NCBI GenBank assembly: GCA_002254845.1
Contig: NKPT01000024.1
Coordinates: 1-48,401 of the forward strand
Origin: Chloracidobacterium sp. CP2_5A
Lineage (GTDB): Bacteria > Acidobacteriota > Blastocatellia > Chloracidobacteriales > Chloracidobacteriaceae
Direction: 5' to 3'
Length of the DNA stretch: 48,401 nt
The notes below the pieces were generated by a model. That model made no database searches and was not told the origin of the DNA. It saw only the letters and a list, made by a program, of their open reading frames with translations. Shown piece by piece: positions 36,402 to 44,487 of this stretch; positions within the stretch are counted from its first letter, which is position 1; each line of letters opens with the position of its first letter. A program made the translations under genes and the position numbers.

Positions 36402-39400
36402 CTACGCCTTTGCGGAAAGCGCGCTGAGCTGAAGGCGGATGCCGATGAGCGTCACGTCGTCGCGTTGCGGCTCATCCGCCTGGTGTTGGTCCAGGACTTG
36501 CTCAAGCCGCTGTCGCTGCACGGGAAGCGGCTGCGAGGACAGCTCGTGCAGCGTCCGCTTCAGGGCGAGCGAGCCGTAGCGCTTTCCGAGCGGGTTATTT
36601 TGGTCGGCGAAGCCGTCGGAGCTCAGATAAAGCATCGTCCCTGGCGGCAGATGAAGCCGATGCTCGGCAAAGCCCCGCTGCTTGACGCGACTCCCGACGC
36701 CGCCCCGCTCGCCGCGGATCTCGCGGAGCGCGCCGCCTTCAGCCACGTACAGCGGACGCCCCGCGCCGGCGAACGTCACGCCGCCGGCGGGATCAAACCG
36801 ACATAGGACAAGATCCATTCCATCCCGTTGCGCGTCGCGGCGGGCGTCATGGCGTAACGCCGCGCGGATGCCGCTGTCGAGCGCGGCGAGAATGTCCGCC
36901 GGCGATTCGATCCCGCGCTCAATGACAATCTGGTTGAGCAGCTCGTTGCCGATCATCGCCATCAGCGCGCCGGGAACGCCATGGCCGGTGCAGTCCGCGA
37001 CAGCTAGCCAGCGAGTTTCGCAAGGGCCGGCGCGCCCCGCTTCGCGGCGACAGTGCAGCCAATAAAAGTCGCCGGAGACGATGCCGCGCGGCCGCCAAAG
37101 AACAAAATGCTCCGCAAAGGCTTGGGCGAGCTCTTCCGCAGTCGGCAGGATGGCGCGCTGAATGCGCTCGGCGTAGCGCAGCCCGTCTAGAATTTCGCTG
37201 GTCGTTTGCTCCAGTTGGCGGTTTTTTTCGGACAGCTCTTCCGTCCGCTGCCGAACCTTCTCTTCAAGGCTGGCGTACAGGCGGGCGTTTTCCAGCGATA
37301 CCGCGGCCTGGGCGGCCAGAAGGGTCAGCGCCTCGCGCCGCTGCGGGCTGAAAGCGTTGGCGACCGACTGATTTTCGAGGCACACGATGGCGCGCATCCG
37401 CCCGCAGTGTTGAACTGGCAGGCACATCACCGACTTCAGCCCCGACGCCCGGACGTAGGGGTCTTGCCCAAACTCGGCCGACTCGGCGGCGTCCGCCAGC
37501 AGCACGCCTTCGCCGGTTCGTAAAACGAACTTGATCACGCTCAGCGGCAGCGACGAGGCTTCGTCGAGCGGGCGCGGCAACCGCGTCGCGGCCGCTGGGT
37601 CGTGAACGTCGCGCTCGGCCTCGACGAGCCAGCCGCCATCCTCGCGCGGGAGAATGAGGGCGCCCCGCGTCGCCCCGGCATTTTCCAGCGCGATGCGCAG
37701 AAGCGCGTCCAGCAGCCGCTCCTGGACGATTTCGCCCGCCAGGACATTCGCCGCCTTCATCACGCTGGCGAAGTCGAAGTTGCCGGCGTCAGTCGTGGTG
37801 TCGCTCGTCACGCCAAACGCCGTCAGCGTCGAGCGCTTGCCCGTGGAGCGTAGCGCGTCGCCCTCGCTCAGGAGCGCGCCGAACGCCTCATCAAGTTGCC
37901 GCACCTTTTCCGTCGCGCCCCACCGCGCGTAGGCGCGACGCGCGTCGGCGGCGTACGCGCGGGCAATCTTGACCCGCCCCTGGTCAAGGAAAAATCGCGC
38001 GGCGCATTCATTCGCCAAGCCCTCCTCGTGGATAAAGCCATTCTCGCGGGCGGCGGCAATCGCCCGGTCGTAAGCGTCCAGCGCCGCGGCGACATCGCTC
38101 CGGACAGCCGCGATTTCAGCGTCCATCAGGTGGAGCTTCTGGGCGTAGTTGGCTGGGGCCAGCGCCGCCCACTGCGCCATCTGCCGGCGCGCGCCCTCCA
38201 GCCAGCCCCGCATGGCATCGGCCTCGGCCGCGCCCATCATTCCGGCGCGCAACAGCGCCAGGCGGGCGAGCGCGCCAAACAGATACGCATTCGGTTGCAG
38301 GCAGGACGACTGCAAGCCAGTCATGTTGTTTTCGCAGTTGATGGATTGCTCATAGGCGCGCTGGTAGTCGCCAAACAAATACGCTAGCTTCAGGCGCAGG
38401 TAGGCGAGCGTGCCGAGCGTGCCTTTGTCGCCCGTCGCGGCGACGGCAGCGTCATCCATCTCCTGACCGCTTTCGCCCCACGTCACCTCGAGCGGATGAT
38501 CGGTTTTGACGCGCAGGTTGCGGATGTAAGAAAGGCACAGGTTGTTGGTTAGGTAATTGCGTTCCTGCCGGAGCGCGCGGATGGCGTCGCGGCGCGCCGT
38601 GGCGTCGCGCTCCAGCGCGTCGAGCGGCTGGCCGATGAAGATGCCAACCCAGGTGATGGCCAGCAGCGCTGTTGAGGCAAACTCCAGATCGCCCGACTCC
38701 GCGCCTTCCCGGTAGGCCGCGAGGAGCGGCTCGATGGCCGTCCGCGCTGGCTCGCGCCAAATGTGCAGAAAGAAGTAGTACGAAGTCAGCGTTCGGGCGC
38801 GCCCCTCGCTGGAAGGCAGGCGATCGAGCAGTTGCAGCGCGAGCCTGCCGAGAGCATAGCCTTGCTCCGGATTCATAAAGCCGCCGCTGACGACCAGCCC
38901 CAATGCCGCAAAGGCGGACGCCGCCAAGCTGTTGACGCCCTGCCGGAGGACCAGCTCCACCCGCTGGAGCGCAACCAGCGCGAACAGGGCGCTGTCGCTT
39001 AGAAAGGCCGGGACGGACATCCGGTAGAGCAAGCGCGCCGCCGCCAGCGCCTGCGGGTCGGTCATGTCGGGGAGCGCCGGAATAGCGGCGAGGTCAAGGG
39101 GCGCGAGGCGCGATTTGACGCGCTCCCAGACCGCGCCAATGTCGGCTGGCGACGTCCGCTCCGGCAGGTCAACGCCAAGCTGTCGCAAGGCGGCGCGGGC
39201 ATGTTCCAGCGCGTCATGGAAGCGATATTCGGCCGAGTAAGCCAGGATGGCGATCTCATGAGCCGGCAGCGCGTCGGTCGGCGACTGGGCAAGATGCAGA
39301 GCCGCCTGGGCGAGTTCCTGGGCGAGCTGGGGGTTGGCGCTGAAAAAGGCCGCCTCGGCCGCTTCCGCGCGGAGACGAAGCGCAAGCGCATCCTGGCTTG

Positions 39401-41768
39401 GCTGCGGATCGTCGCCGAGCAGGTCAAGGCCAACGCGCAGATACGCTAACGCCGGGGCGAAGGCGGCGGCGGCTTTGGCGGCGCGTCCGGCATGCAGGTT
39501 GAGATGAGCCAGCTCTTCGCGCTCGGCCGCGTTGGCATGCCGGCGCCCGCGATTGAGATGGTTGACGATGTCAAACAGGCGCGGCGCGTCGAAGCTGAGC
39601 GCTGAAACGTCCGCCCCGCTCGGCTGCGAGGCGGCAAGCAAGCGCCGCCCGATGCGCCAGTGGCGCGCTTGACGCTCTTCCTCGGTCGCCAGCTCGTAGG
39701 CCGCCTGCTGAATCCGGTCATGGACAAAGTGAAAACGGGACGCGGGGCGACCGGGCGCGGCTTCGCCTAAAACAAGATCAGCCTCCGCGCCGGCTTCCAA
39801 CGCCGCCTGGACGCTCGGCAAGTCAGTTTCGGCGGCCAAGGCGACCTGCGCCGTATCAAACTCATTTCCAAGACAGGCGGCCGCATGCAACGCCCGCTGC
39901 GTTTCGAGCGGGCAGCGATGAAGCTTTTCGATAAGAAACGTCACCACGTTATCCGTCAGGTTGGCGGCGGCGATGCCGGCCAGATTGGCCGTCCAGCCCT
40001 GTCCGGGCTGAAAGGTCAGCCAGCCGTCGGCGGCGAGCCGTTCCAGAAGCTCCCGCGCGAAGAACGGATTGCCGCCGGTTTTCCGGTAAACGATTGCCGC
40101 GACGGCCGCTGCGTCCGGGGACTGGCCCAGCGCCGCCGCCGTAAGCTCGGTCAGGCTGTCCAGGCTAAGCGGCGACAGCGTCACGTACGTCATGGGCAGG
40201 CCGGCCCTTCGGATAGCGTCAAGCGTGAGCAAGAGCGGATGGCCGTCCCCCGCTTCCTGGTCGCGGTACGCCAAAATGATGAGCGACTGAGCTTTTTGCT
40301 GGTTGCGCGCCAGACTCGCCAGAAGGTCGAGCGAAGCCGCGTCAGCCCATTGCGCGTCGTCCAAAAACAGCGCCAGCGGACGCTGCCGAGCGGCAAAAAC
40401 GCCCAAAAGCGCTTCAAACGCCTGCTCAAGGCGATGACGCGCTTCAAGGGCTGGAATTGCAAGCGCCGGCGTCGCTTCGCCGCCAACCAGGAGCGCCAGC
40501 TCCGGGATGATCGGAATCAGGGCGGCGGCGAATGCGCCCAGACCTTCGGACAAGTCCGCGCGCCAGGCTTCCAGCTCGGCGTCGCTGCGCGCAAGAAGCT
40601 GGCGGACGAGCTGCCGAAACGCCGCGCTGATGCCTGAGTAGGGCGTGTCGTTCCGCAGTTGGTCATATTTGCCGGCGATGAAAAAGCCGCGCCGCGCCGT
40701 CACGGGCGCGTGAAGCTCGGCAACGAGCGCGCTTTTGCCGATGCCTGACATGCCGGAGATGACCACCATTTCGCGCTTGAACCGGCAAGCGCGGTCAAAA
40801 GCCTGGCGCAGGAGGCTAATTTCGCGCTCGCGCCCGTACAGCCGCTTGGGAACGACCAGCGTTGCCGCGTCGCGCTGCCCTAGCGGGAACGGACTGATGA
40901 CCGGCTCGCCGCCTCGCTGCAGTTGGCGCAGGCACTCCTCCAAGTCGGCGCGCGCGCCGGCCGCCGTCTGGTAGCGATCATCCGGCGACTTCGCCAGCAG
41001 CTTGTTCGCGATGTCCGAGAGCGCTTCGGGCACGCGCCGGTCGCGCTGGCGCGCCGGCGGCGGCGGGAGCGCCAGATGCGCATGGATCATTTCCAGCGCG
41101 TCGTCCGATTGAAACGGCAAGACCCCGGTCAGCAGCTCATAGAGCAAAACGCCGAAGGAGTACAGGTCGGCGCGCGCGTCAACGGCGCAGCTCAGGCGTC
41201 CGGTTTGCTCCGGCGCCGTGTAAGCCAGCGTTCCTTCAAAGGTATCGTCCGCGCCGTGCCGGGTTGCGATGCGCCGCGCGCGCGCCGCAATGCCGAAATC
41301 TATGAGCTTGACTTGTCTGGTTGCGCGGTTGATGACGACATTTGATGGGTTGACATCCTTGTGCAGCATGCCGGCCGCGTGAACGGCGTCCAGCCCGTCA
41401 AGAATGGCGATGGCGATTGTCAAGCGCTCGGCGATCGGCAAGTCCGTGTAGGACGCCGCCGCGTAGCGCAGCGCCTGGCCGCCAAAGTCCTCCAGGATGA
41501 GCGTCGGGCGATGGCCCGTGCGCGTCAGCTCGTAAGCGCGGATGATTGGCGCGCGCTCGCCAAACCGCGCCGCCAACGTCGTCAGCAGCGACCACTCATG
41601 CTCATAGCGTAGCGCGAGCGCCGCCGGCGGGACGGCTTCCACGGTCGTCTTGAGAATGACTGAGTTGCCGGTTTCCACATGCCGCGCCCGAAGCGCGAGC
41701 GTCCGGTCGCTGCGATAGAGATCTGAAGCAATCACGTAGCCCGGCGGCGCGCAATCGTAAGCCAACAT
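36402..41768 (-). CDS. Giant trifunctional Ser/Thr kinase, AAA-type ATPase, GAF and SpoIIE-type phosphatase protein
   Basis: 1788 residues counted from ATG 41768; a TTG 69 bases upstream is an alternative. Kinase domain (about 10-285): VILK gives the ATP Lys near 40, catalytic loop HKDVNPSNVVIN near 136 and DFG near 157, so it appears active. Next comes a predicted-ATPase/ORC-like domain: YGREREISLL, P-loop SGMSGIGKS near 340, Walker B LALFLDDAQWAD and sensor-like YRKTGGNPFFARELLE. A long TPR-like helical region follows (about 680-1290), then a GAF domain (about 1320-1490), a short coiled coil and a SpoIIE/PP2C phosphatase (about 1540-1786: RPRGIVSGDFYW, ADCTGHGVPGALMAMIGNELL). The design suggests opposing phosphorylation in one chain, probably feeding an anti-sigma-antagonist pathway. 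No regulator target is adjacent. Confidence 0.93.
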   Translation of the reverse strand: MLAYDCAPPGYVIASDLYRSDRTLALRARHVETGNSVILKTTVEAVPPAALALRYEHEWSLLTTLAARFGERAPIIRAYELTRTGHRPTLILEDFGGQALRYAAASYTDLPIAERLTIAIAILDGLDAVHAAGMLHKDVNPSNVVINRATRQVKLIDFGIAARARRIATRHGADDTFEGTLAYTAPEQTGRLSCAVDARADLYSFGVLLYELLTGVLPFQSDDALEMIHAHLALPPPPARQRDRRVPEALSDIANKLLAKSPDDRYQTAAGARADLEECLRQLQRGGEPVISPFPLGQRDAATLVVPKRLYGREREISLLRQAFDRACRFKREMVVISGMSGIGKSALVAELHAPVTARRGFFIAGKYDQLRNDTPYSGISAAFRQLVRQLLARSDAELEAWRADLSEGLGAFAAALIPIIPELALLVGGEATPALAIPALEARHRLEQAFEALLGVFAARQRPLALFLDDAQWADAASLDLLASLARNQQKAQSLIILAYRDQEAGDGHPLLLTLDAIRRAGLPMTYVTLSPLSLDSLTELTAAALGQSPDAAAVAAIVYRKTGGNPFFARELLERLAADGWLTFQPGQGWTANLAGIAAANLTDNVVTFLIEKLHRCPLETQRALHAAACLGNEFDTAQVALAAETDLPSVQAALEAGAEADLVLGEAAPGRPASRFHFVHDRIQQAAYELATEEERQARHWRIGRRLLAASQPSGADVSALSFDAPRLFDIVNHLNRGRRHANAAEREELAHLNLHAGRAAKAAAAFAPALAYLRVGLDLLGDDPQPSQDALALRLRAEAAEAAFFSANPQLAQELAQAALHLAQSPTDALPAHEIAILAYSAEYRFHDALEHARAALRQLGVDLPERTSPADIGAVWERVKSRLAPLDLAAIPALPDMTDPQALAAARLLYRMSVPAFLSDSALFALVALQRVELVLRQGVNSLAASAFAALGLVVSGGFMNPEQGYALGRLALQLLDRLPSSEGRARTLTSYYFFLHIWREPARTAIEPLLAAYREGAESGDLEFASTALLAITWVGIFIGQPLDALERDATARRDAIRALRQERNYLTNNLCLSYIRNLRVKTDHPLEVTWGESGQEMDDAAVAATGDKGTLGTLAYLRLKLAYLFGDYQRAYEQSINCENNMTGLQSSCLQPNAYLFGALARLALLRAGMMGAAEADAMRGWLEGARRQMAQWAALAPANYAQKLHLMDAEIAAVRSDVAAALDAYDRAIAAARENGFIHEEGLANECAARFFLDQGRVKIARAYAADARRAYARWGATEKVRQLDEAFGALLSEGDALRSTGKRSTLTAFGVTSDTTTDAGNFDFASVMKAANVLAGEIVQERLLDALLRIALENAGATRGALILPREDGGWLVEAERDVHDPAAATRLPRPLDEASSLPLSVIKFVLRTGEGVLLADAAESAEFGQDPYVRASGLKSVMCLPVQHCGRMRAIVCLENQSVANAFSPQRREALTLLAAQAAVSLENARLYASLEEKVRQRTEELSEKNRQLEQTTSEILDGLRYAERIQRAILPTAEELAQAFAEHFVLWRPRGIVSGDFYWLHCRREAGRAGPCETRWLAVADCTGHGVPGALMAMIGNELLNQIVIERGIESPADILAALDSGIRAALRHDARRDAQRDGMDLVLCRFDPAGGVTFAGAGRPLYVAEGGALREIRGERGGVGSRVKQRGFAEHRLHLPPGTMLYLSSDGFADQNNPLGKRYGSLALKRTLHELSSQPLPVQRQRLEQVLDQHQADEPQRDDVTLIGIRLQLSALSAKA

Positions 41769-42122
41769 ATCCTCTTGTTCGACAGTAAGCGGTGGATTGC
41801 GCCAGTGTACGCTTTCGTCCAGCCAAAAAACAGCCAAGCTTGATTAGCCTAGGGCCTTATTCGGCAAGCGTTGTCCTGCCGTCGCGCGCCGCCGAGGGCG
41901 CGCCGGCGGCGCAGGCCTGAGGCGGTCGAATGTCGGAAGGCCGGGCGCGCTAGTCAGCCCCGCTCCAAAGCGCGCTCCAAAGCGCGAGCTGATTCGCGAG
42001 CGCGAGCTGATTCGCGGCGCGAGCGACTGCTTTCCATGCGCTTTCCATGTGCTGGAGCGCTTGAGTATAGTGCCGGCCCTTGGCAACGCGGATTCCTGAA
42101 TGAGAAAGAAGAGGCTGCGCCG
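41769..42122. other. Divergent intergenic region packed with short tandem duplications
   Basis: No supported gene. Three different tandem duplications sit side by side at 41961-41984, 41982-42017 and 42029-42050. They lie between the giant kinase gene and the 42123 gene. Promoters for both directions must be here, but no clear consensus boxes are visible. Confidence 0.5.
41961..42050. repeat. Cluster of three short tandem duplications
   Basis: CGCTCCAAAGCG twice (41961-41972, 41973-41984). An 18-bp unit starting GCGCGAGCTGATTCGCG twice (41982-41999, 42000-42017; one mismatch). GCTTTCCATG plus one base twice (42029-42039, 42040-42050; one mismatch). They are unrelated in sequence but adjacent, which points to a local duplication process. 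Confidence 0.88.
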
Positions 42123-42620: not shown

Positions 42621-43145
42621 ATGAACATCGCCAAAATTCTGGAGCTCCCGTTCAAGGGCAACTTCATCCCCTATCCGAGCCGGTCGCTGGTCGAGGTTGG
42701 GCAGCCCGCGCCAGACTTCACGTTGCCCGACACGCAGGGGCGGCCGTTGACGCTGTCGGCGATTGAGCCGCGGTGGTGTCTGCTTTACCTGACGCGCATC
42801 GTGGATCGCGGCTTCATCTGACCATTCTGCTACCCGCGACTGGTCGAGTTGCGCGAACGATATGCGGAGTTTCAGTCCAAGGAGGCGGAAGTCGTGGTTG
42901 TGACGACGACGGATGTTCCCACGTCAAAGCTCATCGCGGAGGATTTGGCCCTGCCGTACCCGCTGTTGAGCGACCCGGGCTGGGCGGTTTTCAAGGGCTA
43001 CGGCGCGGGCGCGGCGCTCGGCGCGCCGTTGCCGGCGGAGTTTTTGATTGACGGCAGCGGTCGAGTCGTCGCACGTTACCTCTGCGACCTTGTGCCAAAT
43101 CACCCGCCGCTTGACGCGACGCTGGCGCGGATACCGGCGCGCTAA
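42621..43145 (+). CDS. Peroxiredoxin-like redoxin with in-frame UGA at the active-site cysteine: candidate selenoprotein
   Basis: A single 175-codon frame interrupted only by TGA at 42819-42821 (codon 67). Before it: NIAKILELPFKGNFIPYPSR, VGQPAPDFTLPDTQGRPLTL (the AhpC/TSA-fold opening) and WCLLYLTRIVDRGFI. After it, in the same frame: PFCYPRLVELRERYAEFQ, VVVVTTTDVPTSKLIAEDLA, LPYPLLSDPGWAVFKGYGAG and AEFLIDGSGRVVARYL. Related redoxins have a CPxC motif at this place, so the UGA stands exactly where the peroxidatic Cys belongs, giving U-P-F-C. A SECIS-like hairpin starts 13 bases downstream. Selenocysteine insertion is the favoured reading. The alternative is a Cys codon mutated to TGA, plausible in a window with other broken genes. 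No selA, selB, selC or selD is in the window. Confidence 0.62.
42835..42853 (+). promoter_or_regulatory. SECIS-like hairpin downstream of the in-frame UGA
   Basis: CGCGAC (42835-42840) pairs with GTTGCG (42848-42853; one G-U pair) around the 7-base loop TGGTCGA. The loop begins 20 bases after the UGA, inside the window used by bacterial SECIS elements, and carries G among its first two bases. The GGUC in the loop also occurs in the apical loop of the E. coli fdhF element. The stem is short, so chance is possible. Confidence 0.45.
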
Positions 43146-43221
43146 AACAGTCATCTTCGCTCGTCGCTGACCTGACCATCTTTTGATGACGGAGGCCCGG
43201 ACGGGGAGGCAGGACTGGTCA

Positions 43222-44487
43222 ATGAAAGCTTGTCCAAAGTGTGAAACGCTGTGGGACGACGGCAAGCGATTTTGTCCCTACCACGGGCTGCCGTTGACGC
43301 CTGCGCCGGAAGCCGTCCCGGAGGCTGTCGCGCCTGTGGACGCTGAGATCACCGTCCGGATGAGCGAGGAGGAGCGGGCGCGGCTGTTTACGCCGCAGTT
43401 TCTGATGTCCGCCGTTTCCTCCGAGGCGGGCGCCGCCGCCGCGCTTGAAGCGGCGCAGCCCGTGGCGGCGTCCTCGCCGCCGGTCGCGGAAGCCTTCTCC
43501 ATCGAGGACCCGCCGACCGCGAAGTCCTCCAATCAGGCGTCCCCGGTTGAGCCGTCGCCTCCCGAGCTGGACTTGTTCATCCCGCCCACGGTGGTGGTTT
43601 CGCCAGCGGCGCTTCCGCCGCCGCTGGGCGCCTTTATTCCGCCGACTGTGATGGTCGCGCCGGCCGAAGCGGAAGTCGCGATGCCGGCGCCGGCGGACGC
43701 GGAGGCTTCCGCGCCAACGCCGGTCACGACGGCTGCGCCTGTTTCAGCCGATGACGGCTTGCCGTTGACGAGAGCGGTTCCGGAGCTCAGAACCTCGCGC
43801 TTGGATCCGGCGGCAACCATTGTGCAGGCGGGACAGGTCGGACCGGTTGGCCCGTGTCTGCCGCCGCCGTTGCCCCCCGCGGCATCGCCTGATGATGAGG
43901 TTGCATTCATTCTCGACTTAGGCGAGAAAAGCGGCGCCTGCTTGCCCCCGCCGGCTGAAGCGAAGCCGGCTGAAGCGGAACCGGCGCCGCCGGCCCGCGC
44001 CGTGACGCCGTCGGCGGTGCCGGCGCTCGTTACGCCGCCGTCGCCAACGATCAAGCGGCGCACGGCGGTGCAGTATTTCAAGCTCTTCAACGAGCGCAAA
44101 AAAGTTATCCAGCAGTTCGTTCAGCGCCTCGATCCGAAAAAGGCTCGCGTCGTCGAAGGCCACAGCAACCAGGAAGACCACCTCATGCACCGCTATGACA
44201 TCGCTTTTCGCTGTCTGGGCGCGGCGCGAGCGTTTCCGCTGGTCATCATTTTGCAGCGCAAGCCGGTTTACGCGCTCATCACCTCGGTCGATCTGTTTGA
44301 GATCGCCGAAAATCCGCTGCTGCGCGCGGAGCGCGTGAAAAGCCTTGGCGGCGAGGCGAGGTCAACGCCCAACGGGGTCATCTATCACCTTTCGTACGGC
44401 GAGGACCTTCCGACCGAGGGGCTTGACGATTGGCTGAAAGCGACATTTCAGGCGATTGCGGGACTGCTTCCGGGCGCGAGCTTGTGA
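43222..44487 (+). CDS. Zinc-ribbon protein with Pro/Ala-rich middle and unknown C-terminal domain
   Basis: 421 residues from ATG 43222; the frame extends a further 13 codons. The N-terminus KACPKCETLWDDGKRFCPYHG is a small zinc ribbon (CxxC then CxxH). Residues about 30-285 are low-complexity Pro/Ala/Val, with repeats such as FIPPTV and a 15-bp in-frame tandem duplication (PAEAK, PAEAE). The C-terminal about 140 residues are globular: VQYFKLFNERKKVIQQFVQR, HLMHRYDIAFRCLGAARAFP and SLGGEARSTPNGVIYHLSYG. I do not recognise that domain. The architecture suggests a scaffold or regulator. It is followed by rluD with a 1-bp gap. Confidence 0.7.
   Translation: MKACPKCETLWDDGKRFCPYHGLPLTPAPEAVPEAVAPVDAEITVRMSEEERARLFTPQFLMSAVSSEAGAAAALEAAQPVAASSPPVAEAFSIEDPPTAKSSNQASPVEPSPPELDLFIPPTVVVSPAALPPPLGAFIPPTVMVAPAEAEVAMPAPADAEASAPTPVTTAAPVSADDGLPLTRAVPELRTSRLDPAATIVQAGQVGPVGPCLPPPLPPAASPDDEVAFILDLGEKSGACLPPPAEAKPAEAEPAPPARAVTPSAVPALVTPPSPTIKRRTAVQYFKLFNERKKVIQQFVQRLDPKKARVVEGHSNQEDHLMHRYDIAFRCLGAARAFPLVIILQRKPVYALITSVDLFEIAENPLLRAERVKSLGGEARSTPNGVIYHLSYGEDLPTEGLDDWLKATFQAIAGLLPGASL
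43950..43979 (+). repeat. 15-bp tandem duplication in the zinc-ribbon gene
   Basis: GCCGGCTGAAGCGAA (43950-43964) is followed by GCCGGCTGAAGCGGA (43965-43979), one mismatch, in frame. Confidence 0.85.

Follow-up and report, generated by a model that had tools for sequence, protein, structure and literature searches.

The locus lies on contig NKPT01000024.1 of Chloracidobacterium sp. CP2_5A (assembly GCA_002254845.1), which belongs to a genus of phototrophic acidobacteria; the window is the whole stretch of DNA analysed, 48,401 nucleotides. On its forward strand a reading frame begins with the ATG at 42621 and ends with the TAA at 43143-43145. A preliminary description, made from the sequence alone, had reported that this frame is broken only by a TGA at codon 67. 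We confirmed that this TGA is the sole internal stop of the frame 42621-43145 and that a cysteine, Cys70, follows three residues later. The features assigned to the locus are as follows.

42621..43145, + strand: coding sequence of a proposed peroxiredoxin-like (Prx-like) UxxC selenoprotein of 174 residues, with a single internal TGA, a PF00578 domain, orthologues in 7/7 genus genomes and low dN/dS before as well as after the TGA
42819..42821, + strand: UGA codon 67, very probably read as selenocysteine (Sec); TGA in 7/7 orthologues, with SelA, SelB, SelD and tRNA-Sec in the genome
42828..42830 (TGC), + strand: Cys70, the presumed partner of Sec67 within the UPFC motif, invariant in the 7 orthologues and in 36 alignment rows
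42835..42853, + strand: putative bacterial SECIS hairpin, CGCGAC-TGGTCGA-GTTGCG, proposed from its fold, its invariance and its fit to a published model

The read-through product matched PF00578 (AhpC-TSA) with 83.2 bits (cut-off 26) and the Redoxin family PF08534 with 53 bits (cut-off 26.6). When the N-terminus was inspected by eye, neither signal-peptide-like features nor a membrane anchor were seen, and from this the redoxin is probably cytosolic. A standard gene finder would end the protein at residue 66 or call its start late. The gene is adjoined upstream by a DUF4760 protein and downstream by another protein, and both neighbours adjoin it at 6/6 of the other genus loci. The downstream neighbour (43183-44487, + strand) had no Pfam match; it carries a CxxC...C arrangement near its N-terminus that looks zinc-ribbon-like by eye, and it is kept in the six other genomes. 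Elsewhere in the window, a frame of 1811 amino acids is open on the reverse strand (36402-41837), with protein kinase, AAA_16, GAF and SpoIIE domains.

Orthologues were found at E ≤ 1e-15 in seven of the ten family genomes examined, and these were all seven of the genus; the three genomes of other genera gave no match at this threshold, yet SelB was present in all three. Each genus orthologue had exactly one internal stop, a TGA at the same codon in 7/7, and the identity of the gene in the six other genomes was 82-91%. On either side of the TGA, every pairwise dN/dS value that could be computed was below 0.16 (three comparisons upstream of it were saturated), and downstream the values were 0.05-0.13. 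Among the AhpC-TSA matches of the seven genomes at E ≤ 1e-5, 7 of 108 contained a stop, and they were exactly these orthologues. One stop interrupting an otherwise ordinary gene is what would be expected of a nonsense mutation or a sequencing error in a former cysteine gene; however, the same TGA occurs in every genome of the genus, dN/dS stays low past it, and both neighbour genes are retained at the six other loci. The observation that contradicts a pseudogene, the same TGA in independent genomes under purifying selection, is thus the one that was made, and we give this explanation practically no credence. Cysteine-bearing relatives combined with further inactivating mutations, which the preliminary description had named as evidence against a selenoprotein, were not encountered: none of the six other orthologues had Cys at codon 67 and none had a further internal stop. 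Translation as two proteins, one on each side of the UGA, is also unlikely, since the redox motif lies across this codon and the constraint extends past it. In plasmid records no relative was found at E ≤ 1e-10.

A different reading of the codon was considered as well, in which UGA encodes another amino acid, either by genome-wide recoding or by leaky readthrough with Trp or Cys. The frame is indeed open if the TGA is taken as a residue, but TGA is also the terminator of the six other orthologues (the window gene ends with TAA), which means that UGA still ends translation there and that its recoding depends on context. The UGA also falls in an active-site column in which some homologues have Cys, and the genome carries the selenocysteine machinery, so that we consider this explanation very improbable. 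The proposed insertion of selenocysteine at codon 67 is very well supported.

All four components that the preliminary description had proposed to look for were present in the source genome: SelA (432 bits), SelB (356 bits) and SelD (377 bits; this was the only genus genome searched for SelD) scored above their curated cut-offs, and a tRNA-Sec with the anticodon TCA reached 65.3 bits against a gathering score of 47. The lack of Sec machinery, which had been named as an argument against a selenoprotein, can therefore be set aside. Under stricter limits, SelA and tRNA-Sec were detected in 7/7 genus genomes and SelB in 6/7; SelB was missed only in G004, a genome that is 85% complete. In the 14 control genomes, the tRNA-Sec, SelB and SelD queries all matched at E ≤ 0.001, because other tRNAs, GTPases and relatives match at this level too. 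Over the cut-offs, tRNA-Sec was found in 5/14 controls and SelB, SelD and SelA in 2/14 each, and under the stricter limits tRNA-Sec and SelB were each found in 2/14. Formate dehydrogenase was tried as a further selenoprotein and rejected: at E ≤ 1e-40, all TIGR01591 matches in the seven genus genomes were below the family cut-off and free of stops.

The hairpin announced in the preliminary description, 6 bp with a TGGTCGA loop starting 13 bases 3' of the TGA, was verified; when an extra U-A pair is included, the folded stem has 7 bp and the loop is GGUCG, which begins 20 nt after the UGA. The 25-nt fold had an energy of -9.3 kcal/mol, and since 14 of 200 shuffled sequences were as stable, the fold alone is not striking. 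Its conservation is another matter. When 519 nt were compared in the seven orthologues, the longest stretch of the gene without any change was the 20 nt at 42834-42853, which the hairpin fills, and the next was 8 nt. All six degenerate codons of the hairpin (codons 72-77) were identical in the seven genomes, while elsewhere in the gene this was true of only 10 of 112 degenerate codons with an invariant amino acid (Fisher p 2.4e-6, shared ancestry being ignored). The stretch had not been picked for its conservation, because it was named from one sequence.

The published bSECIS model gives a loop of 3-9 nt with G in loop position 1 or 2, an upper stem of 4-16 bp, a distance of 16-37 nt from the UGA and a minimum free energy of at most -7.5 (PMC13188914, section 5). 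The hairpin lies within all of these limits (5-nt loop GGUCG, 7 bp, 20 nt, -9.3 kcal/mol). Longer folds were less uniform: at 44 nt the window sequence preferred a different pairing (z -0.77), and at 61 nt the hairpin was retained with a z of only -1.26. In 45-nt folds it was kept in six of the seven orthologues, the window being the one that lost it. Within the genus the hairpin is invariant and hence shows no covariation of its paired bases. A search of the whole window against Rfam at gathering level gave no matches, and at a loose E-value the region 42750-42950 gave no SECIS family; one CRISPR-repeat match on the opposite strand (E 3.5) was taken as chance. The hairpin at 42835-42853 is presumably bound by SelB.

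The preliminary description had also placed Sec at the position of the peroxidatic cysteine, and here our alignment disagrees. In 36 rows, U67 stood in the Thr column of the peroxiredoxin TxxC, whereas C70 occupied the column that we take to be that of the peroxidatic Cys. The Pro column of the motif PxxxTxxC was occupied by Arg63, and Pro138 stood in the column of the peroxiredoxin Arg, presumably the catalytic one. A proline at the place of Pro138 is typical of thioredoxin folds. Five fold models were made; the best, with a mean pLDDT of 75.9 and a pTM of 0.76 (the others had 43-60), matched structures of AhpC/TSA, AhpE and ResA, and the best sequence match in the PDB was the ResA structure 4nmu (E 1.5e-9). 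The alignment, together with the PDB and fold matches, points to a thioredoxin- or ResA-like UxxC centre on a Prx-like fold, with Sec67 and Cys70 as a thioredoxin-type pair. A true peroxiredoxin with Sec as its peroxidatic residue would agree with the AhpC-TSA domain and fold, and Sec is a good nucleophile towards peroxide; the columns of U67 and C70 nevertheless run counter to it, as does the replacement of the peroxiredoxin Pro, Thr and Arg, and we regard it as unlikely.

Sampled genomes of the phylum were searched at two thresholds. At E ≤ 1e-20, 4 of 396 genomes matched, among the best candidates scored per genome (up to 8), and all four belonged to the genus. At E ≤ 1e-12, 58 of 297 genomes matched among the best candidates scored (up to 11 per genome), and 27 of the matches listed outside the genus contained one TGA. 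Eleven of these 27 loci were examined, and in ten, from ten genomes, the TGA fell in the column of codon 67 (L035, L037, L040, L042, L045, L048, L050, L054, L055 and L058), within the motifs UPYC, UPFC, UPWC, UPAC or UVFC; in the eleventh, L049, it lay upstream of the domain. True peroxiredoxins, with their TPxC or SPxC motifs, had Thr or Ser in this column of the 36-row alignment, and proteins of the WCPYC type had Cys. The preliminary description had proposed to look for Cys/Sec exchange at codon 67; forms with Cys and forms with Sec in this column occur among more distant homologues, and none of the six other genus orthologues has Cys there. In a Candidatus Brocadiales contig, an AhpC/TSA relative (L022) also had an in-frame TGA, in the motif RGVW-U-AAC, and is possibly another Sec form.

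The genus formed a clade with support of 100/99 in the tree of the 36 rows; its placement among the other rows was weak (88/64) and joined it to one long branch. One clade (100/100) united the Cys forms L036 and L047 with L040, L042 and L048, which are Sec forms. We scored the sequences for a hairpin with a simple score written for this purpose. Scores were 15-19 for the 17 forms with Sec, of which 7 come from the genus and share one hairpin and 10 come from the other loci of the phylum, and 0-15 for the 17 Cys, Thr or Ser forms, with an overlap at 15 between the Thr form L038 and the Sec forms L050 and L058. Within the mixed clade the Cys forms L036 and L047 scored 0 and 10, against 19 for each of the three Sec forms. 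Single Sec-form sequences had their score reached by 3-39 of 300 shuffles, and we treat the separation as supportive only. The occurrence of Sec, Cys and Thr forms within one phylum provides a ready set for a study of Sec/Cys exchange.

It is very probable that the internal UGA, apparently a stop, encodes Sec in the active site of a redox protein with a thioredoxin fold. SelB, seated on the hairpin just 3' of the codon, would bring Sec-tRNA(UCA) to UGA67. Sec67 would then make the nucleophilic attack, in the manner of the first Cys in the CxxC of thioredoxin or ResA, and its target may be a disulfide or a peroxide. Cys70 could resolve the product with formation of a Sec67-Cys70 selenenylsulfide, which the thiol system of the cell would presumably reduce again. 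Taken as a whole, the reading of the gene as an AhpC/TSA-superfamily selenoprotein, with SelB- and hairpin-directed Sec at UGA67, Sec67-Cys70 chemistry and a probable place in the cytosol, is one that we hold with high confidence. The preliminary proposal of a U-x-x-C selenoprotein of the AhpC/TSA fold with a SECIS-like hairpin immediately 3' is strongly supported.

The selenoprotein belongs to a kind that had been described before. The Prx-like UxxC selenoprotein family is listed as known in 2005 (PMC1088965), so the earlier label of a new selenoprotein holds for the orthologous group only. At E ≤ 1e-20, and among the best candidates (up to 8) per genome, no genus but this one yielded a member of the group. 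A search of the literature for Chloracidobacterium with selenoprotein or selenocysteine gave, by title, only papers on ergothioneine or related compounds and none on selenoproteins; with the present gene, a genus for which no selenoprotein papers were found by title gains a well-supported selenoprotein, and ten further genomes of the phylum each contribute one locus with a Sec form of the UxxC Prx-like type. For Acidobacteria, the literature gives four selenoproteins of three families (PMC1794560) and, in one acidobacterium, three known selenoprotein genes (PMC12013277). Tentatively, the Chloracidobacterium proteins could form a genus-restricted UxxC subfamily, marked by the N-terminal stretch LPFKGNFIPYPSRS and RGFI-UPFC. 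The enzyme would then be a selenoprotein of the cytosol that acts on its own particular substrate and differs from the forms of W-UPYC type elsewhere in the phylum, with Sec fixed in every genus genome examined. This possibility deserves mention, though we would not favour it.

Several known systems resemble the protein. The closest are the UxxC or UxxU selenoproteins described as Prx-like thiol:disulfide oxidoreductases (PMC1088965, PMC1794560, PMC13188914), a name given to the UxxC family in PMC1794560 and PMC13188914 and equated with PF00578 in the latter. PF00578 is common to both, Sec is likewise first in a UxxC that replaces the TxxU of peroxiredoxins, and a SECIS-like hairpin directly follows the UGA, as here; the likeness is one of domain, motif and published description, with WP_010940744.1 as the representative and a Geobacter protein as the type. 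Within the phylum, the Chloracidobacterium protein has RGFI-UPFC, whereas the other loci have RG(Y/S/T)W-U or RSADW-U. Canonical peroxiredoxins are defined by the motif PxxxTxxC and a catalytic Arg. They share the fold superfamily, and the genome has its own TPTC paralogue, L030, with 33% identity; in contrast to these enzymes and their TxxU Sec forms, the Chloracidobacterium protein has Sec at the Thr position and lacks the peroxiredoxin Pro and Arg, while C70 is kept. SelL-related redox proteins gave a weak match (NF040769, 37.2 bits, below the cut-off of 120), and SelL has UxxU where the present protein has UxxC. ResA/TlpA thiol-disulfide oxidoreductases carry their CxxC motif at the same place and share the LPxxFLID loop; the match to NF002854 was 39.5 bits, below the cut-off of 170, and the Chloracidobacterium protein differs from ResA in having Sec instead of Cys and, by eye, no anchor.
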